This document shows positions 2,752-58,193 of a stretch of 64,000 nucleotides of DNA, in pieces (position 1 is the first letter of the stretch; each line of letters starts with the position of its first letter). Both the position numbers and the translations under genes were made by a program. Source of the stretch: Cephaloticoccus capnophilus. Lineage in GTDB: Bacteria > Verrucomicrobiota > Verrucomicrobiia > Opitutales > Opitutaceae. The notes beneath the pieces are model-generated. The model made no database searches and was not told the origin of the DNA. It was given only the letters and a program-made list of their open reading frames with translations. The stretch spans positions 1-64,000 of the forward strand of contig NZ_LSZP01000042.1 in assembly GCF_001580045.1 (NCBI RefSeq), given 5' to 3'.

Positions 2752-3114
2752 CCACTCACGTGTGCTGCGCACGCTCGCCGCCGCAGGCTGCTTTATTTGG
2801 CGGCGGGCTCGTTGGCGACAAGTGCGCTAGCCTTGGCGGCCCGCCGTCCATCGCTGCACCCATTCACAGAGCCGCTTGGTTGCCGTGCATTCGCACAGCA
2901 GCCAAGCGGCCCTGTGAAAAGGAACCCAAACTTGGAGCCGGGAGTTTACTGATGATTTTCCCCACCTCGCCCAAACGGGTTATCACTCTACTCCCTGTCG
3001 CAACGCGACAGGGAGAGTGTTTTCAAATTTGGGATTTCGCTTTCGCGCGATAGCGCGATGAGAAATCCCAAATTAAATGGAAGCGGTCACTGACCGCCGC
3101 CCCACGCGCAGTGG
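2752..3114 (+). repeat. Modular hairpin element, copy R1
   Basis: This 363-bp intergenic element fills most of the convergent gap between the TonB receptor and the minus-strand gene at 3200. Its ends carry inverted terminal motifs: CCACTCACGTGTG at 2752 and CCACGCGCAGTGG at 3102-3114. Inside are, in order, a module containing GCCGCAGGCTGCTTTATTTG, an imperfect 24-bp hairpin (2866-2916), a conserved linker (2931-2992), a 9-bp hairpin (2993-3013), a long hairpin of 13 bp plus an inner stem (3026-3074), and GCGGTCACTGACCGC. The same modules recur at 36720, 38780 and 43063. No protein-coding signal is seen; short frames here are artefacts of the repeat. Confidence 0.85.
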
Positions 3115-21155: not shown

Positions 21156-23314
21156 GCAGGGGGCGACTTGCGACATTCTACCTGCTATCCGTCAACGCGC
21201 TGGTACTCGACCAGCACGCTGCTGCGTGTTTGGGCAATGGTCACGACCATCTCCTTGAGTGCCGCTCCGGAGAGCTGGGTTGCGGGCGACTGACGGTAGT
21301 CGTCCCACCGAATCACCTGATAGGTGGCGTTGGCATCAATATGCTCCGGGTGCAGGGTGACGGAATCCGTGTCCGCCCCCGGTCCCCGCAACGCGACGAT
21401 GATTCCGCTCGAATCAGAATGGCGATGATGCTGGTAGGCCGTCCAAGCCTCCTTCTCCAAGTCCGGCGCGATCAGGCCGATCCGCTCTTCGGCCACGAAA
21501 GACCGAAGGCGCTTCATTTCGGAAACTGCCGCGATAGCATCGGCATACTCGGGATCTTGATCGTTTTCTGGCAGCACGCGGTAGGCCATGAATCCCGCAC
21601 AGAGAGCGCCGCGGATGGCATAGGCATCAAAGGTGGCGTTCAGTCCCGAATGGACCACAAGCCAGTGTCCAAGCCCCCAGCATTGGATCTGGTTGACGAT
21701 ATCCATCTCGGAGGCCCCTTCTTCGCCCACGTCAACTGCATCACTACGCGTGAGCATCACCGCGCGGCGCAGGGTTTCCAAGTCAATCCTGCGTCCACCC
21801 GAGGCGCAATTGTCGATCATTATGCCGGGGTGCGCAGCCCGTATCCGGTCCCATAGTGCGTAAAGCCCTTCGACATGTCGAATCTCCGTTATCCCTACCC
21901 GATCAGGAGCATCAGCAGCGTACCAAGCTTCAAGCGGAGCCATGTTGAAGTCCTGGCGATAAATGTCCGCGTTAAACTCGGTGATTAGAGAGGAGATCTT
22001 CTCAAAGGCCAGATCGACCGCGCGCGGATCGCCGAGGTTCAGAAGGATGCCTCTTCGCGTATACGGATCAGGGCTGTTTGGGTCGGGATAGCTGAGGAAC
22101 AACTCAGGGTGGGTACGCGGCCATTCGGTGTTCGGTCTAGCCCGCTCCGGATCCATCCAGATGATGAACTTCATCCCGAGCTCATGCGCACGGTCACTGA
22201 TCGGGCGCAGCCCACGCGGGAAATCGCTGCGCCGGATATTCCAATTGCCCACCTCATTATCCCAGTCGGTCGTGTTCCCATACCAACAGGCATCCACCCA
22301 ATGCGCTTCAAAACCCAGTGCGGCAGCACGCTCCATCGCTTCGATCTCAATCTGTTCGCTGACAACCCGGGTCACATGGTACTGATGCATCGTTCCGTGT
22401 GAGATTAAATTGAAGATATTCCCATCCGGCCCCCTTGGCACGACGTGCTTCATCAAGTGCGCACGTACTAGACGACGAGCTTGGTCGGCGGTCGCCTCGG
22501 GTGCCTGCGCCAACAGGATCGAAGGCAGCCTCACCGACTCCCCGGGTCGCAGCACGAACCCGACCTGCGGCAACCCGATTTCAATCTCAAGGGTTCCGGA
22601 AGCATGACGCAGCGTGGCATCCCAGCGCCCGCTCCAGCCAATACCGATAGCCAAGGAGTCATGCCTGTCTGTCAGCGCGAAGAAGGGGAAAATCCCGTCT
22701 GATGAGCGCCCGCCATTCGGCATCAGTGTAATGGTGTCAATATCGAGCTCTGTACGGTCGAGAAAGTCATCAAGACGTGCTTCCGAGCCTTTGTTTCCGT
22801 AAAAATCCACCGGGCCACGCGTCGGCCATGATGCCGCGAGCGAGCGCACCCCGGTCACCCGCTCCGAGGGTTTTGCGCTGTTATTGATGAGCGTGGGGAT
22901 CCACTCCGTAACCGCACCAATCGTTCGCCACTGCGCACGGATTTGCAGTTCCGGGGCTGTAGTGGACTGGAACACCCGCACCGTCCACCCTGCCTCCTGG
23001 GACGGCTCTTCTGCGATGGCAACAAAGTCATCAAGCGTCTTACCGCCGACGATCAAGCGCCCCGGCCATCGCTTATCAGGCAGGGCAGCGAAATCTAACG
23101 TTTTCTCGGTTTTGGAGGACATAGCTACAGTATTTTAGGGGTTGGAGGTGAAGCACTTCACCGCCAAAAGGCGGCGAATGAAAAATCGCGGAGTCTAAGT
23201 TAGCCTAGGGGAGCTGGAAAAGCCTAGCTGTGTGTCATTAGATTGGAGTCCCACAAGAGTAAAATCCAGGGGGCCGCCAACACCTAATCTTGGTCTCTTA
23301 GCCTTTTCCGTTCG
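21156..23314 (-). repeat. Tandem duplication, unit A (GH36 gene plus flanks)
   Basis: This unit of about 2.16 kb is repeated at 23575-25742. Homology starts at GCAGGGGGCGACTTGCGACA, just past the gene's 3' end, and runs through the gene and about 190 bases of its 5' flank to CTTTTCCGTTCG. A spacer of 260 bases (23315-23574), A/T-richer and without a recognised gene, separates the two units. Confidence 0.85.
21185..23122 (-). CDS. GH36 family alpha-galactosidase (copy A)
   Basis: Glycoside hydrolase of 645 residues that removes alpha-linked galactose (or a related sugar) from oligosaccharides. An N-terminal beta-domain is followed by a (beta/alpha)8 barrel. The family-36 features are WVDACWYGN, GLRPISDRAHELGMKFIIWM, the nucleophile region DIYRQDFN (Asp near 389; the usual KWD is RQD here) and the acid/base region NCASGGRRIDLETLRR with LTRSDAVD (Asp near 461). 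No signal peptide, so probably cytoplasmic. The GTGAAG/CTTCAC palindrome and the CCGCC/GGCGG hairpin lie 25-55 bases upstream of the ATG. This is the intact copy of a tandem pair. Confidence 0.88.
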   Translation of the reverse strand: MSSKTEKTLDFAALPDKRWPGRLIVGGKTLDDFVAIAEEPSQEAGWTVRVFQSTTAPELQIRAQWRTIGAVTEWIPTLINNSAKPSERVTGVRSLAASWPTRGPVDFYGNKGSEARLDDFLDRTELDIDTITLMPNGGRSSDGIFPFFALTDRHDSLAIGIGWSGRWDATLRHASGTLEIEIGLPQVGFVLRPGESVRLPSILLAQAPEATADQARRLVRAHLMKHVVPRGPDGNIFNLISHGTMHQYHVTRVVSEQIEIEAMERAAALGFEAHWVDACWYGNTTDWDNEVGNWNIRRSDFPRGLRPISDRAHELGMKFIIWMDPERARPNTEWPRTHPELFLSYPDPNSPDPYTRRGILLNLGDPRAVDLAFEKISSLITEFNADIYRQDFNMAPLEAWYAADAPDRVGITEIRHVEGLYALWDRIRAAHPGIMIDNCASGGRRIDLETLRRAVMLTRSDAVDVGEEGASEMDIVNQIQCWGLGHWLVVHSGLNATFDAYAIRGALCAGFMAYRVLPENDQDPEYADAIAAVSEMKRLRSFVAEERIGLIAPDLEKEAWTAYQHHRHSDSSGIIVALRGPGADTDSVTLHPEHIDANATYQVIRWDDYRQSPATQLSGAALKEMVVTIAQTRSSVLVEYQRVDG

Positions 23315-23574
23315 GCAACCAATATGCTGGATATTCAGCACAATACGGCGGCGCTGTTCTATAAAAAAGCCCGACAGGTAATTACCTATCATTTGCAACA
23401 GGAGAGCAGCGAAATGTTTGAAGATTGTATTAAATGGGATGAAAGCGATTTTTGGAGAAAAACGTAAAGGTAAGCGCGCTCGCGGAGCGGCAGGCCCCCG
23501 CCAGCTTTTTCACAATCTCCCTAAAATATTTCTTCCAAGCAGAACGCTTTCTGTCTCCGCCTACAGTATATACT

Positions 23575-25742
23575 GCAGGGGGCGACTTGCGACACTCTAC
23601 CTACTATCCGGAAACCCGATGATATTCAACCAGCACGCTGCTGCGTCTCTGGGCGATGGTCATAGCCAGTTCTTTAAGTGCCGCGCCGGAGATCCGGGTT
23701 GCGGGCAACTGACGGTAGTCATTCCATTTTGTCACCTGATACGTGCCCCCGACATCAATATACTCCGGGTGCAGGGTGACGGAATCTGCATTCGCCTCCG
23801 GCCCGCGCAAGGCCACGATAATCCCGCTTGCGTCGGAATGACGATGGTGCTGGAACGCCGCCAAGGCTTCTTTGTCCAAATCCGGCGCGATCAGGCCAAT
23901 GCGTTCCTCATCCATGAAAGGCCGCAGACGCTTGAGCTCGGCCAACGTCGCAATAAGATCGGCATATTCGGGATCTTGCTCGTTTTCCGGCAGATCGCGG
24001 TAGGCCATGAACCCCGTGCACAGTGCACTGCGGGTGGCGTAGGCATCAAAGGCATTGTTCAGCCCGGCATGGTCTGCGAGCCATTGCCCAAGCCCCCAGC
24101 ATTGGATCTGGTTGACTATATTCACTTTATCGCCCGCTTTGCCGCCCTCGTCGTCCACGTCCACGATATCACTGCGCGTAAGCACCGTCGCACGGCGCAA
24201 AGTTTCCAGATCAATCCTGCGCCCGCCGCCTGCGCAATTGTCGATCAGAATGCCAGGATGAGCGGCACGTATTCGATCCCACAGCGCGTAAAGCCCTTCG
24301 ATATGCCGGATTTCCGTGATCCCCACCCGGTCAGGGGCATCCGCTGCGTACCAGGCATCGAGCGGATACCCGCTGAAGTCCTGGCGATAGATATCCGTAT
24401 TGAATTCGGTGATTAGAGAGGAAACCGTCTCGAAAGCCAGATCCACCGCACGCGGGTCGCCAAGGTTCAGAAGCATGTCCCCCCTGTACCAAGGGTGCCG
24501 TTTATCATCATTAGGATAGTGAAGGAGGAGGTCCGGATAGGTGCGCGCCCATTCGGTGTCCGGTCGCACCCGTTCCGGCTCCATCCAGAAGATGAACTTC
24601 ATGCCCAGTTCATGTGCACGATCACTGATCGGGCGCAGCCCACGCGGGAAATCGCTGCGCCGTGCGTACCAGTTGCCAACCTCCTTGGCCCAATCAGGCA
24701 AGTTCCCATACCAGCAGGCATCAACCCAGTAGGCTTCAATGCCCATTGCCGCCGCGCGCTCCAGTGCCTCAATCTCGCCTTGTTCATTGGCAATGCGGGT
24801 GACGTGAAACCGATACATCGTTCCATGTGAGGTAAAAAGAGGGCTTTTCCCGTCGGGCGCCTTCGGCCTGACATGGTGAGTCAGATGCGAGCGCACCACG
24901 CGGCGGGCCTGGTCGGCGCTCGCACCAGGTGCCCGCGCCAGCAGAACCGAAGGCAACCTCACCGATTCCTGCGGACGAAGTACGAATCCGACCTGTGGCA
25001 ACCCGACTTCAACCTGCAAAGCCCCGGCTGCATGCCGCAGCTTGGCACACCAGCGCCCGCTCCAGCCAATACCGATGGCAAAGGCGTCATGCTGGTCGGT
25101 CAGGGCGAAGAAGGGAAAAATTCCATCTGACGAGCGTCCTCCGTGCGGTATCAGCTCAATTTCATCAATATCGAGTTCGATACGGTCTTCAAAGTCATGA
25201 ATACTTTCATGCGAGCCGTTGTTTCCGTAAAAATCCACTGGACCTCGTGTCGGCCATGCTGTCGCGAGCGAGCGCACTTCGGTTACCCGCTCCGAGGATT
25301 TTGCGCTGTTATTGATGAGCGTGGGGATCCACTCCGTAACCGCACCAATCGTTCGCCACTGGGCGCGGATTTGCAGCGTTGCACTAAAACGGACTGGAAC
25401 ACCCGCACCGTCCACGAGGCATCCGAGGACGGCTCTTCTGCGATGGCAACAAAGTCATCAAGCGTCTTACCGCCGACGATCAAGCGCCCCGGCCATCGCT
25501 TATCAGGCAGGGCAGCAAAATCTAACGTTTTCCCGGTTTTGGAGGGCATAGCTACAGTATTTTAGGGGGGTGGAGGTGGAGCACTTCACCGACAAAAGGC
25601 GGCGAACGAGAAATCGCGGAGTCTAAGTTAGCCTAGGGGAGGCGGAAAATCCTAGCTGTGTGTCATTAGGCTGGAATCGCACAATGGCAAAACCCAGGGA
25701 GACTCCTACACCTAATTTTGGTCTCTCAGTCTTTTCCGTTCG
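23575..25742 (-). repeat. Tandem duplication, unit B
   Basis: Second copy of unit A, in the same orientation. The 5' flank and first 40-odd codons are nearly identical to unit A, while the rest has drifted more. This uneven divergence suggests gene conversion at the 5' end. Confidence 0.85.
23604..25549 (-). pseudogene. GH36 alpha-galactosidase copy B, frameshifted
   Basis: Paralogue of the gene at 21185, roughly 80% alike in protein. The frame that begins at ATG 25549 (MPSKTGKTLDFAALP) matches copy A for about 50 codons and then leaves the homologous frame near 25380-25395. Between shared flanking words copy A has 15 bases and copy B 14, so one base is missing. The homologous frame continues from there to the stop at 23604 with the catalytic region intact (YRQDFSGYP, LTRSDIVD). 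Possibilities are a true frameshift mutation, a sequencing error, or translation of a shortened protein from an internal start. The loss would remove the start of the N-terminal domain. Confidence 0.75.
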
Positions 25743-36719: not shown

Positions 36720-37053
36720 CCACTACGCATGGGGCGGCAGGCTGTGCCTGCACCCGTTTACCGAACGCTTGGCTGCCGTGCTTATGCACGGCAGCCAAGC
36801 GTTCGGTAGAAAGGATCCCAAACTTGGAGGCGGGAGTTTACTGGTGATTTTTCCCACCTCGCCCAAACGGGTTATCACTCTACTTTTCCCTTTTACTATT
36901 CTCCCTGTCGCAACGCGACAGGGGGAGTGCTTTCAAATTTGGGATTTCGCTTTCGCGCGATAGCGCGTTGCGAAATCCCAAATTGAATGGGCGGCGGGCC
37001 AACGAGCCCGCCGCCAAATAAAACAGCCTGCGGCTGCGCCCCACGCGTAGTGG
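36720..37053 (+). repeat. Modular hairpin element, copy R2
   Basis: A 334-bp element between the convergent hisN-like gene and rny. Terminal motifs CCACTACGCATGG (36720) and CCACGCGTAGTGG (37041-37053) are inverted. Contents: GGCAGGCTGTGCCTGC, a 22-bp perfect hairpin with a 4-nt loop (36760-36781 with 36786-36807), the shared linker (36823-36883), a 9-bp hairpin (36903-36923), the long AATTTGGGATTTCG hairpin (36936-36984) and a GCGGCGGGC/GCCCGCCGC hairpin ending in CAAATAAAACAGCCTGCGGC. A GGTCACTGACC palindrome follows just outside. Confidence 0.88.
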
Positions 37054-37085: not shown

Positions 37086-38666
37086 TCACTCAGCGGTTTC
37101 GGTGAAGCGTTTCTCGCGGATGACTGTGATTTTAATCGTGCTCGGGTAGTCCAGCTCGGTCTCCACTTTTTGGCGCAACTCGCGGGCGATTTCGCGCGCG
37201 CGGTCGTCGTCCACTGCGTCGGGCGAAACCACAACGCGGATTTCGCGCCCGGCTTGAATCGCAAAGGATTGCTGCACGCCGTCGATCGCGTTCGCCAGTG
37301 CCTCCAGTCGTTCTAGGCGCTGGATGTAGTTGGTTACACTTTCGGCGCGCGCACCGGGCCGCACCGCCGAGATGGTATCCGCTAGAATAACGATGCCCGC
37401 GTAAATGGTCTCGGGCTTGACCTCCTCGTGGTGCGCCTCGACGGCGTTCACGACGATGGGCGTCTCGCCGTAGCGTTTGATAAAGGCTGCGCCGACTCGC
37501 GCGTGGCTGCCTTCGTAACCGGCGGGCGCGGCTTTACCGATGTCGTGGAGGAGCGCGGCGCGTTTGGCGACATTGGCATCGAGGCCGAGCTCGCTCGCAA
37601 TCATTGAGGCGAGGTAGGCGCACTCGATTAGGTGGTCGAGGACGTTTTGGTTGTAGGCGAAGCGATACTTGAGCTTGCCGAGCAGGCTAATGACCTCGGG
37701 GTGCAAGCCGTTGATGCTGAGGCGCGTAACCGCCTCCTCGCCGGCGAGGTCGGCACTGGAGTCGATTTCGCTCTGGGCGGTTTTTACAAATTCCTCAATG
37801 GTCGCGGGGTGGATGCGACCGTCCTTGACGAGGGCTTCGAGCGCGAGGCGGGCGACTTCGCGGCGCACCGGGTCGAAGGAGGAGATGAGGACGGTTTGCG
37901 GGGTCTCGTCGATTAGCAGCGTAACGCCAGTGGCGGCCTCGAAAGTCTTAATATTGCGGCCTTCGCGACCAATGATGCGGCCCTTCATCTCCTCGCTGGG
38001 AAGCTGAACGATGGTCGCGGAGAGGTCGTGGCTTTGGCGAACGGCGATCCGCTGCATGACGGTCACGAGTTTGTCGCGCGCCTGCATTTCGAGCTCTTGC
38101 TCGGAGCGCTCCATGATCTCGCGGCGCAGCTGGCGGAGCTCGTCTTGGCATTCGAGGATGACTTCCTCGCGCAGCGCACGCTTCATCGCCTCGGTGTCCA
38201 TCTTGGAGATGCCTTCGAGGCGTTCGCGGACGTTGGCAGAGAGCGCAGTGATGGTTTCGCGGGTCTGGCGAACGGCGGCGAGCTCACGGTTGAGCCGCTC
38301 GGTGCGTTGTTCGAGTTGGTGGTCGAGTAGCGCGAGCGATTCTTCGTGGGCGCGAATCTCGCGCAGCCGCACCTCGGCATCCACCTCTTTGGCGGCAAAC
38401 TCCTCGACTAGGGCAGCGCGTTTTTTACGAATGCGCTCGGCGGCCTTTTGGCGGACTTCTTCGGCAGCGACGGCGGCTTCGCGTTTGGCAACCTGTAGAA
38501 TCGTCTCCGCACTTTTGCGCGCTTCGCGGCGAATCGAGCGGGTGACCGCCCAAATCGACCAAAAGCCGATGCCCATGCCGACGAGGACGTAGACCGCCAA
38601 GCTCCAGTCGAGCCGCATAGCGGCGGCCAAGAAGACTAAGGTTAGGCTGATGGAAAGCGCGGGCAT
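37086..38666 (-). CDS. rny: Ribonuclease Y
   Basis: Membrane-bound endoribonuclease that starts mRNA decay; 526 residues. An N-terminal membrane helix (LAVYVLVGMGIGFWSIWAV) leads into a long coiled coil (about 45-205), then a KH domain near 215-275 (SEEMKGRIIGREGRNIKTFE), an HD domain with LLHDIGKAAP near 375 and EAHHEEVKPET, and the C-terminal domain. Length and order match RNase Y. ATG 38618 is an alternative start. The gene lies between two copies of the hairpin element (R2 and R3). Confidence 0.96.
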   Translation of the reverse strand: MPALSISLTLVFLAAAMRLDWSLAVYVLVGMGIGFWSIWAVTRSIRREARKSAETILQVAKREAAVAAEEVRQKAAERIRKKRAALVEEFAAKEVDAEVRLREIRAHEESLALLDHQLEQRTERLNRELAAVRQTRETITALSANVRERLEGISKMDTEAMKRALREEVILECQDELRQLRREIMERSEQELEMQARDKLVTVMQRIAVRQSHDLSATIVQLPSEEMKGRIIGREGRNIKTFEAATGVTLLIDETPQTVLISSFDPVRREVARLALEALVKDGRIHPATIEEFVKTAQSEIDSSADLAGEEAVTRLSINGLHPEVISLLGKLKYRFAYNQNVLDHLIECAYLASMIASELGLDANVAKRAALLHDIGKAAPAGYEGSHARVGAAFIKRYGETPIVVNAVEAHHEEVKPETIYAGIVILADTISAVRPGARAESVTNYIQRLERLEALANAIDGVQQSFAIQAGREIRVVVSPDAVDDDRAREIARELRQKVETELDYPSTIKITVIREKRFTETAE

Positions 38667-38779: not shown

Positions 38780-39073
38780 CCACTCCGCGTGGAGCGGCAG
38801 GCTGTGCCTGCACCCGTTCAATTTGGGATTTCGCCGCGCGCTGTAGCGCGAAAGCGAAATCCCAAATTTGAAAGCATTCCCCCTGTGCGTTGCACAGGGA
38901 GGGAAAAGTAGAGTGATAACCCGTTTGGGCGAAGTGGGGAAAATCACCAGTAAACTCCCGCTTCCAAGTTTGGGTTCCTTTCTACAGAGCCGCTTGCTTG
39001 CTGTGCGAATGCACAGCAAGCAAGCGGCTCTGTAAATGGGTGCAGCGACACGCTGCCGCACCACGCGCAGTGG
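38780..39073 (-). repeat. Modular hairpin element, copy R3 (inverted)
   Basis: A 294-bp copy with its linker in the opposite orientation to R1, R2 and R4 (38908-38968), lying in the divergent gap between rny and rodA. Terminal motifs: CCACTCCGCGTGG and CCACGCGCAGTGG. The AATTTGGGATTTCG hairpin (38820-38868), a CCCTGTGC/GCACAGGG stem (38881-38899) and a 23-bp perfect hairpin with a 4-nt loop (38984-39033) are present. Stem sequences differ from R2 but still pair. The promoters of rny and rodA must lie around or inside it. With its flanks this explains the gap 38667-39164. Confidence 0.88.
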
Positions 39074-42924: not shown

Positions 42925-43062
42925 CCACACACAGCCCAAGCCGTCCAGCCCAAGTCCGCAATCCCCGTTAGGCCGCACTTTTACCTGCCGACCAAGACGA
43001 GCCGCCAACGAATGGCCGTGCGCCTCGCACCGGCTCGCCAAAATGGCTGCACTCACTGAGTG

Positions 43063-43448
43063 CCACTACGCGTGGAGCGGCAGCGTGTCGCTGCACCCAT
43101 TCAATTTGGGGATTGGCCCCGTCGCTTCGCGACGAAACCAATCCCCAAATTTGAAGTCCCTTCCCTTGTCGCGTTGCGACAAGGGAGGGGGAAGGAAATG
43201 AGGAGAGCCCTCGGGCTTCCCGAGACGGGAAGAATCACGAATAAATCCACGTCCCAAACTTGGAGGCGGGAGTTTACTGGTGATTTTTCCCACCTCGCCC
43301 AAATGGGTTATCACTCTACGCTCCCTTTTACTACTCGCCCTGTCGCAACGCGACAGGGGAGAGTGCTTTCAAATTTGGGATTTCGCTTTCGCACGATAGC
43401 GCGATGCGAAATCCCAAATTAAATGGAAGCGGTCACTGACCGCCGCCC
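43063..43448 (+). repeat. Modular hairpin element, composite copy R4
   Basis: About 386 bp from CCACTACGCGTGG (43063) to the dnaJ stop. It holds two sets of the A and B hairpins. The first set has altered stems: CAATTTGGGGATTGG with CCAATCCCCAAATTTG (43102-43153) and CCCTTGTCGC with GCGACAAGGG (43163-43185). The second set (43338-43420) has the standard stems. The linker is at 43257-43319. It ends with GCGGTCACTGACCGC (43429-43443) and lacks the second terminal motif. It fills the gap between rfaE2 and dnaJ. Confidence 0.85.
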
Positions 43449-44642
43449 TCAAAAGAATTTTTTGGCTTTTTCGAAAAAGCTCTTTGAGGCGGGTTCGGTC
43501 GGGGCGTCGCCGCTAAGCGTTGCAAACTCTTCCAAGACCTTGCGCTGCTCGTTCGAAAGCGAAGTCGGCACTTCCACATGCACGCGCACGAGTTGGTCGC
43601 CTTGGCGGCGTCCGCGCAGCGAGGGCATGCCCTTTTCGCGCAGCCGAAAGGTCGTACCGCTCTGCGTGCCTGCGGGGATTTTCAGCGTGGCCTTGCCAAA
43701 GAGCGTCGGTGCCTCAATCGAGCCGCCGAGCGTCGCCAGTGTGAATTTTATCGGAATCTCGCAAAACAGATCGTCGCCGTGACGCTCGAACAGCTCGTGC
43801 TCTTTGACCGCAAGGACGATGTAGAGGTCGCCCGTTTGGCCGCCCTGCACGCCTGCCTCGCCGTTACCCGCCGAGCGCAGTCGCGAGCCCGTATCCACGC
43901 CCGCCGGGATGTTGACCTTGAGCTTCGTGGTCTGCTGCACGCGGCCTTCGCCGTGACACTTGGTGCAGGGCTTTTCGATTTTTTGCCCCGTGCCACCGCA
44001 GGTCGGGCACACTTGGGTAAAGGTAATAATCCCGCCCGAGCGGCGGACTTGGCCCGCGCCGCCGCAAGTCGGGCAGGTCACGGTTTTAGAGCCCGGCTCC
44101 GCACCACTGCCGCTGCAACGCTCGCAGCTCACGAGTCGCCGGTAGGAGATCTCCTTCTCCACGCCGCGCGCGGCCTCTTCGAGCGTGATCTCTAGGTCAT
44201 AGCGCAGGTCGGCTCCGTCGCGGACCGCCGAAGCGCGCCCGCCACCACCGCCGCCAAACATCTCATCAAAAAATCCCCCGCCACCGGCTCCGCCCGCGCG
44301 CGAAAAGCCGCCAGCCTGCCGGCCAAAGACTTCCCTAAAAATATCAAAGGGATCATGAAAGCCGCCGCCACCGGCTCCGCCAAAGCCACCCGCGCCTGCG
44401 CCACCCATCCCGCCTTGAAACGCAGCATGGCCGTAACGGTCGTAGGCGGCGCGCTTATCGGCATCGCTGAGCACGTCGTAGGCTTCGGAGACTTTTTTAA
44501 ACATCTCCTCCGCCTCTTTATTCCCCGGGTTTTTGTCCGGGTGGTATTGGACGGCTTTCTTACGGTAAGCCTTCTTTAACTCATCGGCAGTCGCGGTTTT
44601 GCCGACGCCGAGCAGCGCGTAGTAATCTTCCTTTGCAGCCAT
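43449..44642 (-). CDS. dnaJ: Chaperone DnaJ (Hsp40)
   Basis: Co-chaperone of DnaK, 397 residues. J domain with the HPD tripeptide ([13 protein letters not shown]), a Gly/Phe-rich linker (about 75-130), and four CxxCxGxG zinc motifs ([32 protein letters not shown]), then the client-binding domains ([20 protein letters not shown]). Standard type-I DnaJ. It starts 9 bases after the grpE stop, so they form an operon; dnaK is elsewhere. Confidence 0.97.
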
Positions 44643-50409: not shown

Positions 50410-52148
50410 ACACCCTCAGTACCCGATGCTTCCTAGTCCCCGATAAATGCAAACAAAAATACCTGCCAACACTAGTGGGAGATTCCCTTTAAGAGCCATC
50501 TTTCTCGCGTCGCTATTTCCTGCACTCCTCGGGCTATGCTGCGGGCTATTTATTATGCCGCCATATATAGATCATGATACCGAGGTTGGCTTGACGGCTT
50601 GGGGTAATTATAAGAACGGCGGCACTTGGAACACTGTGGTAAGAGCCGATCCTGAAAATATCGCAAACAGTATCGAACAAAGTCTCACTTGGTGGCCTCC
50701 TGGACAATACCTACCATTGGGACTTTTATACTCTGCGGGACTATCGGTCGGCATGGCCGCGATAGCTATAGCTTTTCTTTCTACCCTCTCACTGGGGGCC
50801 GGTGGCGCATTGTTAGTAAAAGAACTTAGTCAGGAGAGCGATATATGTATCCTGCCTTGGGTTTCCGCTGCGCTTGCCTCCTCCCATTATGCACTGATAA
50901 ACTTCCATCACTTTTGGGGAGGGGAAACTGGGCTAATGGCCGTGCTCCCTTGGATAGTTCTTGCTGCTTATAAATTACGGCATCGCACTCTCGCTTTAAT
51001 CCTATTCCTCCCCCCGCTTTTTCTGCTAGGATCCTTTATCAAACACGCCTTTGCAATTCACTCTTTTTGTATACTCGCATTTCTTTGGCTAGAAAAGAGC
51101 AGAGAGGAATTAAGCCTCTCAGATAAAAAAATAACAACCCTCAAAAAGACTCTAAAAATAGTAGCCCCTCTATTCGCAGTAGGATTGCTCTATCTCGGTC
51201 TCAGGCACTATTTTATCGAGACGACAGTTACTCCGCTGCGTTTAGGTGAGCCCTTATTTGGCTTCACCACCTATCTGGGGTATAGTGCATGGGCCCCACT
51301 TATGGCCCCGTGGGGAATCGGCTCACTCGCAGACAGATTCGCTCCACGCCTTTTTGAACTTAACGGGACTAGGATATGGGAACATATAGGACTGGCTCTA
51401 TCTATTCTCTCGCCCTTGGCGATCGGATTTTACACTTGGCTCTCATTTCGAAAAAGTCCGCTAATTTCGCTAACGGGATTAGCTGCTTTACTCACAGCTC
51501 TAATCCATCTTTATATCTATCACTCGGGAGGAGTAATTGAGCTTCGAGATAGGTATTATCAATTCCCAGCATTCCTATTTTTAGCAGTCGTTGCCACCTA
51601 CATATATCAAATTGGCTGGAAAATGCGCACGGCTAGACTTCTCCTTGGGTTATGTATTTTAATCGGGTCAGTAAATGTCGTCAAATCAGGATTTGCTTCA
51701 AAAAGATGGATTCCTATTAATTATAGGATGGGCGTAGCAAGCTTTGTTCCCGACTCAGTCATTGAAGATATTCATACCCTATTAAGCGAAGCACCAGATT
51801 CTGTTTTGGTTATTCCGCATCCATCCCTAGATGTTAATTTATCTTTATACCCGCTGTCTTCAACTCGTATCCTAGCTACCTATGGCGAAAGCAGAGAGTT
51901 ACCTATGCCGAAATCACTTCATGGGCGCTCCCCTCTAATTGTGATTGCCTCCCCTAAAAGGGACATTCTAGGGGCAAAATCCGCGGCATCACGCTTCGCA
52001 GACTACTCTGCAGATGAGTGGGAAAGTCATGAGTCAGGAGGCTGGCTTTTTCTAAAAACAAAACAGCCGCTGACTCACTAAATAGCCCAAGCGCGACTAC
52101 TGCTCCCGCTACTCGCCTCAGTGCCAGATACTGCGCTCGGCGAGCGGG
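50410..52148 (+). repeat. Tandem duplication, unit 1 (1739 bp)
   Basis: First of two direct repeats (second at 52149-53895). Both run from ACACCCTCAGTA through a whole membrane-protein gene to the end of the nitroreductase gene. The two units differ by 8 bases: one codon-triple insertion (9 bases) less one base upstream. Confidence 0.9.
50447..52081 (+). CDS. Polytopic membrane protein, possible GT-C type glycosyltransferase (copy 1)
   Basis: Protein of 544 residues with about ten membrane helices and a soluble C-terminal part. After the first helix comes PPYIDHDTEVGLTAWGNYK, an acidic first loop as in GT-C glycosyltransferases, then LTWWPPGQYLPLGLL, like their PPG motif. HFWGGETGLMAVLPWIVLAA and ELRDRYYQFPAFLFL follow. 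The resemblance is to lipid-sugar-using enzymes (ArnT/PMT type), but no family was firmly recognised. Codon and base use is clearly more A/T-rich than the neighbours, suggesting transfer. A nearly identical copy follows at 52185. Confidence 0.75.
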   Translation: MQTKIPANTSGRFPLRAIFLASLFPALLGLCCGLFIMPPYIDHDTEVGLTAWGNYKNGGTWNTVVRADPENIANSIEQSLTWWPPGQYLPLGLLYSAGLSVGMAAIAIAFLSTLSLGAGGALLVKELSQESDICILPWVSAALASSHYALINFHHFWGGETGLMAVLPWIVLAAYKLRHRTLALILFLPPLFLLGSFIKHAFAIHSFCILAFLWLEKSREELSLSDKKITTLKKTLKIVAPLFAVGLLYLGLRHYFIETTVTPLRLGEPLFGFTTYLGYSAWAPLMAPWGIGSLADRFAPRLFELNGTRIWEHIGLALSILSPLAIGFYTWLSFRKSPLISLTGLAALLTALIHLYIYHSGGVIELRDRYYQFPAFLFLAVVATYIYQIGWKMRTARLLLGLCILIGSVNVVKSGFASKRWIPINYRMGVASFVPDSVIEDIHTLLSEAPDSVLVIPHPSLDVNLSLYPLSSTRILATYGESRELPMPKSLHGRSPLIVIASPKRDILGAKSAASRFADYSADEWESHESGGWLFLKTKQPLTH

Positions 52149-52152
52149 ACAC
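52118..52152 (-). pseudogene. Relict tail of the nitroreductase gene
   Basis: Duplicate of the last 12 codons of the gene at 53865 (VPLAERSIWH then stop, against VPLAERIIWH). It is left between the two membrane-protein copies and shows where the duplication break lies. Confidence 0.85.
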
Positions 52153-52184
52153 CCTCAGTAACCGATGCTTCCTAGTCCCGATAA

Positions 52185-53828
52185 ATGCAAACAAAAACAC
52201 CTGCCAACACTAGTGGGAGACTTCCTTTAAGAGCCATCTTTCTCGCGTCGCTATTTCCTGCACTCCTCGGGCTATGCTGCGGGTTATTTATTATACCGCC
52301 ATATATAGATTTTGATACCGATGTTGGCTTAACGGCTTGGGGTAATTATAAGAACGGCGGCACTTGGAACACTGTAGTAAGAGCCGATCCTGAAAATATC
52401 GCAAACAGTATCGAAGAAAGTCTCACTTGGTGGCCTCCTGGGCAATACCTACCACTGGGACTTTTGCACTCTGCGGGACTATCGGTCGGCATGGCCGCGA
52501 TAACCGTAACTTTTCTTTCTACCCTCTCACTGGGGATAGGGGGAGCATTATTAGTAAAAGAACTTAGCCGGGGGGGGAGGGGGGGGGATATACGTACCCT
52601 GCCTTGGGTTTCCGCTGCGTTTACCTCCTCTCATTATGCACTGATAAACTTCCATCACTTTTGGGGAGGGGAAACTGGGCTAATGGCCGTGCTCCCTTGG
52701 ATAGTTCTTGCTGCTTATAAACTACGGCATCGCACTCTCTCTTTAATTCTATGCCTCCCCCCTCTTTTTTTGCTAGGATCCTTTATCAAACACGCCTTTG
52801 CAATTCACTCGATCTGCATAATCACATTTCTTTGGCTAGAAAAGAGCAGAGAAGAATTAAGCCTCTCAGATAAAAAAATAACAACCCTTAAAAAGACTCT
52901 AAAAATAGTAGCCCCTCTATTCGCAGTAGGATTGATCTATCTCGGTCTCAGGCACTACTTTATCGAGACGACAGTTACTCCGCTGCGTTTAGGTGAGCCC
53001 TTATTTAGCGTCACAGCCTATCTGGGGTATACTGCATGGGCCCCACTTATGGCCCCGTGGGGAATCGCTTCACTCGCGGACGGATTCGCCCCACTTCTTT
53101 TTGAACTTAACGGGATTAGGATATGGGAACATATAGGACCGGTTCTATCTATTCTCTCGCCCTTGGCGATCGGATTTTACACTTGGCTCTCAGTTAGGAA
53201 AAGTCCGCTACTTTCCCTAACGGGCGTAGCTGCTTTACTCACAGCCCTAATCCATTTCTATATCTATCACTCGGGAGGAGTGATTGAGCTTCGGGATAGG
53301 TATTATCAATTCCCAGCGTTCCTATTTTTAGCAGTCGCTGCCACCTATATATATCAAAGTGGCTGGAAAATGCGCACGGCTAGACTCCTCCTTGGAGTAA
53401 GTATTTTAATCGGGTCAGCAAATGTCGTCCTAACAGGGCGTACTGCAAGAAAATGGATTCCTATTAATCATAAGATGGGCGTCGCAAGCTTCGTCCCCGA
53501 CTCAGTAGTTGAAGATATTCATGCCCTATTAAGTGAAGTAACTGATTCTGTCTTGGTTATTCCGTATCCATCCCTAGATGCTTATTTATCTTTATACCCG
53601 CTGCATTCAACTCGCATCCTAACTAACTATGGAGAGGAAAGAGCGTTGAGTTTGCCAAAATCATTTAATGGGCGCTCCCCTCTAGTTGTGATTGCCTTCC
53701 CTAAAAGGGAAATTCTAGCGGCAAAAGAATTTGCATCACGCTTCGTCGACTACTCTGCAGATGAGTGGGAAAGCCATGAGTCAGGGAGCATGTTTTTTCT
53801 AAAAACAAAACAGCCGCTGACTCATTAA
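52185..53828 (+). CDS. Polytopic membrane protein, possible GT-C type glycosyltransferase (copy 2)
   Basis: Paralogue (547 residues) of the gene at 50447, about 90% alike by eye. Main differences: the acidic loop reads PPYIDFDTDVGL, and a three-residue insertion makes SRGGRGGDIRT where copy 1 has SQESDICI. The insertion is encoded by a G tract (52570-52587), giving a site where slippage would change frame. Substitutions are spread through the gene with the frame intact, so both copies seem to be maintained. Function as for copy 1. Confidence 0.75.
   Translation: MQTKTPANTSGRLPLRAIFLASLFPALLGLCCGLFIIPPYIDFDTDVGLTAWGNYKNGGTWNTVVRADPENIANSIEESLTWWPPGQYLPLGLLHSAGLSVGMAAITVTFLSTLSLGIGGALLVKELSRGGRGGDIRTLPWVSAAFTSSHYALINFHHFWGGETGLMAVLPWIVLAAYKLRHRTLSLILCLPPLFLLGSFIKHAFAIHSICIITFLWLEKSREELSLSDKKITTLKKTLKIVAPLFAVGLIYLGLRHYFIETTVTPLRLGEPLFSVTAYLGYTAWAPLMAPWGIASLADGFAPLLFELNGIRIWEHIGPVLSILSPLAIGFYTWLSVRKSPLLSLTGVAALLTALIHFYIYHSGGVIELRDRYYQFPAFLFLAVAATYIYQSGWKMRTARLLLGVSILIGSANVVLTGRTARKWIPINHKMGVASFVPDSVVEDIHALLSEVTDSVLVIPYPSLDAYLSLYPLHSTRILTNYGEERALSLPKSFNGRSPLVVIAFPKREILAAKEFASRFVDYSADEWESHESGSMFFLKTKQPLTH
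52570..52587 (+). repeat. G8-A-G9 homopolymer tract inside a gene
   Basis: Eight G, one A and nine G in a row, in frame as Arg-Gly-Gly-Arg-Gly-Gly (about residues 129-134). Copy 1 has CAGGAGAGC at this place. Such tracts are prone to slipped-strand mutation and could switch the gene on and off. Confidence 0.85.
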
Positions 53829-54440: not shown

Positions 54441-54560
54441 GGGCAAAGGGCCTAGCCAGAATCCCTGATTTCACAATCCCCAGAGCGCTTTATTAGAAAG
54501 CGCAAAAATAGACGATTCCGCCAAAACGGAATGTTATTGGGAAATCCGCTGCCGCCCTAG

Positions 54561-54585
54561 GGTCTTTTCCCGTTTCAAACGCGAG
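54561..54585 (+). repeat. Family-2 repeat arm
   Basis: GGTCTTTTCCCGTTTCAAAC and the following GCGAG match the arm at 58111 with one change. CCCTAG occurs on both sides (54555 and 54590), so a short inverted repeat encloses it. A GCGCTTT/AAAGCGC hairpin lies nearby at 54487-54505. Confidence 0.6.
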
Positions 54586-54626
54586 CAGGCCCTAGCTCCT
54601 CCCGCCTTAATCCGCAGGAAGAGCGA

Positions 54627-58093: not shown

Positions 58094-58193
58094 GACTGAC
58101 TAAGTCCTAGGGTCTGTTCCCGTTTCAAACGCGAGCCGCGCCGGAGCCAGATTTTGTGCGCAACGCGGCGCTCGCTTGAAACCGGAACAGACC
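58091..58193. repeat. Family-2 inverted repeat beside hemA
   Basis: A TAGGACT/AGTCCTA hairpin (58091-58109) covers the hemA stop codon. Then GGTCTGTTCC at 58111 is matched in inverted form by GGAACAGACC at 58184-58193, with further pairing (CGTTTCAAACGCGAG against CTCGCTTGAAACCG). The gap to nrdA (58094-58310) is filled by it. Confidence 0.75.

Follow-up and report, generated by a model that had tools for sequence, protein, structure and literature searches.

The window analysed here is a stretch of 64,000 nucleotides of the Cephaloticoccus capnophilus genome, in which the region between dnaJ and a nucleotidyltransferase gene is occupied by R4, a compound copy of a repeated element (43063..43448, + strand). 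The nucleotidyltransferase gene starts at 43056, and the stop codon of dnaJ, whose closest named relative is that of Cephaloticoccus primus CAG34 (90%), lies at 43449-43451. R4 begins with a left terminal inverted repeat (TIR), CCACTACGCGTGG (43063..43075, +), one of 288 such ends genome-wide, followed by a D hairpin of the cagcg type, GCGGCAGCG TGT CGCTGCACC (43077..43097, +). Slot B holds an inverted C type-ii cassette, AATTTGGGGATTGG...CCAATCCCCAAATT (43103..43151, - strand), next to a short S hairpin in inverted-loop form, CCCTTGTCGCGTTGCGACAAGGG (43163..43185, -). The conserved core linker (43252..43330, +), with the core pattern GTTTACTGGTGATTTTTCCCACCTCGCCC at 43272, leads to a further short S hairpin, CCCTGTCGCAACGCGACAGGG (43338..43358, +), a C hairpin of type i with imperfect inner pairing, AATTTGGGATTTCG...CGAAATCCCAAATT (43372..43420, +), and a D hairpin of the ggtca type, GCGGTCACTGACCGC (43429..43443, +). 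The left half is thus made of an inverted C type ii and S, while the right TIR has been lost, so that the element abuts the dnaJ stop codon. Folded as DNA, R4 gives z -13.6. A longer left side of this kind was seen in four sampled copies, R4 included (offsets -204 to -213). In C. primus and in another Cephaloticoccus, dnaJ and its neighbouring gene are present at this site but are not separated by a TIR-bounded element, so the simplest reading is that the C. capnophilus lineage gained R4.

Three other copies lie in the window. In R1 (2853..3114, +) the left-hand D is a long variant and the right TIR lies at 3102-3114; in R2 (36720..37053, +), bounded by two TIRs, the right-hand D is a long variant; R3 (38780..39073, -) is a complete copy of 294 bp with both TIRs. 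The slot B hairpin of R2 (36759..36808, +) is of type II, with the loop TTAT, the inverse of the ATAA found in other copies, and that of R3 (38984..39033, -) is of type I. Both stems are perfect, as the original prediction had it, and both are 23 bp long rather than 22 and 23 bp. The other stems it quoted are likewise present: the long stem of R4 (CAATTTGGGGATTGG at 43102 with CCAATCCCC at 43138), the arm AATTTGGGATTTCG with which this stem was contrasted (at 3026, 36936, 38820 and 43372), and the three forms of the short stem (CCCTGTCGC/GCGACAGGG in R1, R2 and R4, CCCTGTGC/GCACAGGG in R3, and CCCTTGTCGC/GCGACAAGGG at 43163/43176). R2 and R3 flank an RNase Y-like gene with RNase_Y_N, KH and HD domains (37086-38666). 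The window also contains tandem gene duplications, at 50439-52879 (about 93-95% identical) and at 21156-25742 (77-95% identical).

R1 to R4 are copies of one dispersed, non-coding, modular intergenic element bounded by TIRs (CCACTRCGCGTGG), with a median length of 306 bp. The end motif CCACTNCGCGTGGNGCGGCAG occurs 288 times across the 2,092,503-base genome, and the core pattern has 99 genome-wide matches at up to three mismatches (48 forward, 51 reverse; none for the reversed control pattern). By our estimate there are 100 to 200 copies, making up as much as about 3% of the genome. The order of parts is end motif, D, slot B, core linker, short S, C, D, end motif, i.e. about five hairpin slots per element, each taking one of a few cassette types: cagcg, caggc, ggtca or a long form in slot D; I, II, III or inverted C types in slot B; and types i and ii in slot C, whose stems are nearly invariant inside each type. 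A diverged version with unchanged layout is present in C. primus, like C. capnophilus an ant-gut species, each of the two being represented in the comparisons by one genome. No element match was obtained in the seven other members of the genus searched or in 97 other Opitutaceae genomes (100 genomes of the family were drawn), and searches of phages and plasmids, and of GTDB contigs with the exact core pattern, were likewise negative.

The element was analysed on sequence stretches around its copies, drawn from a 66-contig assembly. Several contigs start within an element copy (e.g. C15:15, C46:65, C2:23, C47:28 and C64:10), which indicates that the assembly is broken by the repeats. Some TIR-bounded copies are shorter, at about 215-230 bp (L157:808-1036, L158:661-890, L159:626-854 and L162:688-915), the last three being assigned from TIR spacing alone. 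The first, examined over its full sequence, has C and S hairpins plus a AAAATCACGATT hairpin and no core, and R4 contains a similar stretch in degraded form at about 43220-43250. Outside the TIRs, the flanks of L014-L113 display modular, mirror-symmetric shells (GCGCTGATACGCTTTTTC / GAAAAAGCGTATCAGCGC; GTCAGAGGTCACAGAGCT / AGCTCTGTGACCTCTGAC) arranged in onion-like layers. A second dispersed repeat, CCTAGGGTCTGTTCCCGTTTCAAACGCGAGC, is found in the window at 2703-2733, 54556-54586 and 58106-58136, and elsewhere often adjoins element ends on their outer side.

The central claim of the original prediction, that stems change sequence between copies and keep their pairing, is borne out above chance, by arm-crossing in both species and by shuffling in C. 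primus, and on a larger scale than could be seen from the window. In an unselected alignment of 22 slot B hairpins from C. primus, 95.4% of cells are paired, versus 81.8 +/- 1.0 when shuffled, so that pairing is retained in the larger alignment in which its loss would have spoken against the claim. Two-sided changes affect 15 of 22 pairs and one-sided-only variation none, and the covariation score is 0.364, versus 0.123 for shuffled and 0.03-0.05 for slid controls; P values from the shuffles are not strict, the copies being related and recombining and their kinship uncorrected. These figures use the unselected C. primus set, 16 rows from the present genome having been hand-picked for variety in an earlier alignment; a joint alignment of all 73 slot B hairpins, with misplaced type II columns, was left out of the counts. 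Crossing arms between copies raised the number of non-Watson-Crick pairs from 60 to 125.7 (sd 6.9) in C. primus and, in the present genome, from 73 to 87.3 (sd 3.2) for B type I and from 26 to 47.8 (sd 3.8) for B type II. For distinct C arms of both species pooled, mismatches rose from 21 to 61.6. Pairing is not strictly kept in the present genome, where many inner pairs show no covariation: in type I, 25 of 49 copies have T-G at pair 14 and 33 of 49 have C-A at pair 18, and both positions are nearly free to vary.

The two arms of a hairpin agree in type almost without exception: 79:5 in slot B (the five being of mixed or partly unclear type), 109:0 with one unclear in slot C, and 128:1 in slot D. 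Types in different slots, on the other hand, are independent (B with C, V 0.20, p 0.95; B with the right-hand D, D2, p 0.95; the left-hand D, D1, with B, p 0.46), and C type is independent even of the linker base touching the hairpin (V 0.03, p 0.81). Linker type is associated with D2 (V 0.70). Each hairpin therefore acts as a unit, and these units are reshuffled between copies, although such unit-wise exchange could also mean selective loss of hybrid hairpins. D types at opposite ends of an element match in only 7 of 69 cases (D1 with D2, p 0.18), which indicates that pairing is kept only between close arms. Exchange of whole cassettes accounts for part of the apparent covariation, a third process besides the structural selection and template-switch copying originally offered. 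R4 illustrates this: its long-stem arms do differ from those of other copies and do pair, yet the contrast is mostly the swap of an inverted type ii cassette and not point-by-point compensation. The covariation might also simply record ordinary subfamilies, amplified from a small number of masters that differed in their perfect hairpins. Cassettes do sort into discrete types, with the near-invariance of C stems within each type noted above, but masters predict linkage between slots, which the independence of the B, C and D types contradicts, and the C. primus hairpins include many singleton perfect stems; we regard this explanation as very improbable.

Template switching at inverted repeats is marked by arm homogenisation and spacer inversion (PMC8604942), and compensatory changes of several bases can arise in one such event (PMC8794818). 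Eight of 10 distinct slot B tetraloops are also present as their reverse complement, with 1.5 expected under simple null models (P about 5e-5), giving the inverted pairs ATTC/GAAT, ATAA/TTAT, GCAA/TTGC and ATGA/TCAT; loop orientation was fixed by anchors flanking the hairpin on both sides. In C. primus, the perfect hairpin of copy L305 shares an identical left arm with the imperfect ones of L184 and L182, and its loop is GGAAC in place of GTTCC. Judged by sequence, L305 looks like L184 after its right arm was rewritten to pair fully with the left one and its loop was flipped. A second C. primus case of arm homogenisation plus loop inversion is given by L188 and L192. Perfect arms are associated with loop sequence, namely with GGAAC in C. 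primus (4/5 vs 2/16, p 0.011) and with loops other than ATTC in the present genome (p 0.0006); the latter association is weak within type II alone (p 0.14), types I and II differing in both traits. Such correction is infrequent, as the commonest type I cassette retains two mismatches, and the mismatch of D types between the far TIR ends is as expected if templating needs close arms.

An alternative cause of paired change is selection for RNA structure: elements would be transcribed as 3' untranslated regions, and compensatory mutation would keep hairpins that stabilise or process mRNA. According to codon-based gene calls made for this analysis, the median distance of an element to a gene 3' end is 30 nt, compared with 161 nt to a gene start, for 67 elements of which 25 sit in convergent, 31 in tandem and 11 in divergent settings. 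The elements are therefore probably transcribed and may affect mRNA. Folding is also very strong: intact R3 forms a closed multi-branch structure with z -15.9. The opposite strand of R3, however, folds equally well (z -15.5). C type ii has 89 G-T versus one A-C on the + strand, as an RNA would have it, but in slot B A-C exceeds G-T (37 vs 29 in type I, 21 vs 3 in type II, 24 vs 3 in C. primus). No strand is thus favoured throughout, and the G-U/A-C asymmetry was dropped as a strand test because it is contradictory between slots. Nor do the mismatches of the commonest slot B cassette fit RNA selection, which does not predict loop inversion either, and Rfam 15 covariance models gave no match at gathering score inside the window. 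The arm-homogenised perfect hairpins and the inverted loops favour template switching instead, so that of the two causes originally put forward, template-switch copying is the better supported. We consider RNA selection unlikely as the main cause; it may act in addition.

Alternatively, the hairpins could be recognised by a single-strand transposase of the RAYT or IS200-like kind, such that only paired copies spread, as in REPINs. The element is indeed a TIR-bounded, intergenic, high-copy unit with subterminal hairpins, compensatory changes are likewise known in REPIN stems (PMC3116915), and the R4 site is empty in C. primus and the other Cephaloticoccus compared. Against this, Y1_Tnp has no match in C. 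primus and one in the present genome, whose 3.3-kb locus has no TIR; DDE_Tnp_1 is absent from both genomes; and rve gives two weak or partial matches, in the present genome only. Flank matches in a search for target site duplications (TSDs) at 89 copies were no more frequent than in shuffles. Among 20 inspected loci whose ends were unpaired or oddly spaced, covering part of the 288 ends in the 66-contig assembly, no TIR-flanked transposase was recognised. The widest-spaced TIR ends listed, those of L156 and L157, belong to distinct shorter copies or end fragments that are close neighbours, with a reading frame between the two copies of L156. Overall, upkeep of the hairpins by such a transposase appears rather improbable.

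The element nevertheless works like a REPIN/BIME-type mosaic. With the REPINs and REP-BIMEs described in Pseudomonas (GI-GIII) and E. coli, it shares an intergenic location, high copy number, mosaic modules, inverted palindrome pairs as the unit, proximity to gene 3' ends and compensatory stem changes (PMC3116915). It differs in its length of about 300 bp, in its several distinct hairpin slots and conserved core, in the free assortment of cassettes between slots and in the lack of a RAYT in C. primus; with the single Y1_Tnp locus of the present genome devoid of TIRs, REPIN membership fails on the RAYT. The REP tag is a GTAG/CGTC tetranucleotide at the base of a 20-40 bp palindrome, and the letters GTAG occur in CCACGCGTAGTGG. 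GTAG-type REPs are reported to be abundant in the related verrucomicrobial genome of O. terrae (PMC3733652), so the group was already known to carry palindromic repeats. The element resembles bacterial MITEs in being short, non-coding, present in many copies and ended by TIRs, but membership fails on the TSD, none being detected above chance, and no autonomous partner was recognised at the 20 loci inspected. The BOX elements of Streptococcus pneumoniae are also modular intergenic repeats of stem-forming boxes, of other sequence and layout, whose modules vary in number and not in type per slot. Closest in process is quasipalindrome correction, in which arm homogenisation and spacer inversion (PMC8604942, PMC8794818) both appear as they do here. 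It has been reported at single gene loci, whereas the present case involves about 100 dispersed copies together with exchange of hairpins between copies. The process of template switching is thus known, but we found no genome-wide population of freely mixing hairpin cassettes in the open-licence papers searched.

Our favoured reading, held with moderate confidence, is that the hairpins remain paired while changing sequence mainly through template switching during DNA replication, combined with cassette exchange. A replication fork would reach a single-stranded hairpin and the nascent strand would switch template inside it, copying one arm off the other, which would homogenise the arms and sometimes flip the loop. 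Switching or gene conversion among the many dispersed copies would trade whole hairpins as cassettes. We infer polymerase template switching as the agent. It is tempting, if doubtful, to go further and propose that the family spreads and diversifies without a transposase, forks stalled at the hairpins switching to other copies and carrying whole hairpins over as cassettes, with break points at the base of hairpins. If true, a genome nearly free of the transposase types tested would hold palindromes that recombine as a population and maintain themselves.

Functional RNA structure is conventionally proven by covariation. In the natural collection described here, about 100 paralogous hairpins show strong covariation that apparently stems from DNA replication, which is a warning to covariation-based RNA discovery and provides a test bed for it. 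The unit of exchange is the hairpin and not the whole element, and the family, dispersed through the genome of a bacterium of the gut-symbiont type, offers a place to measure the rate of template switching.
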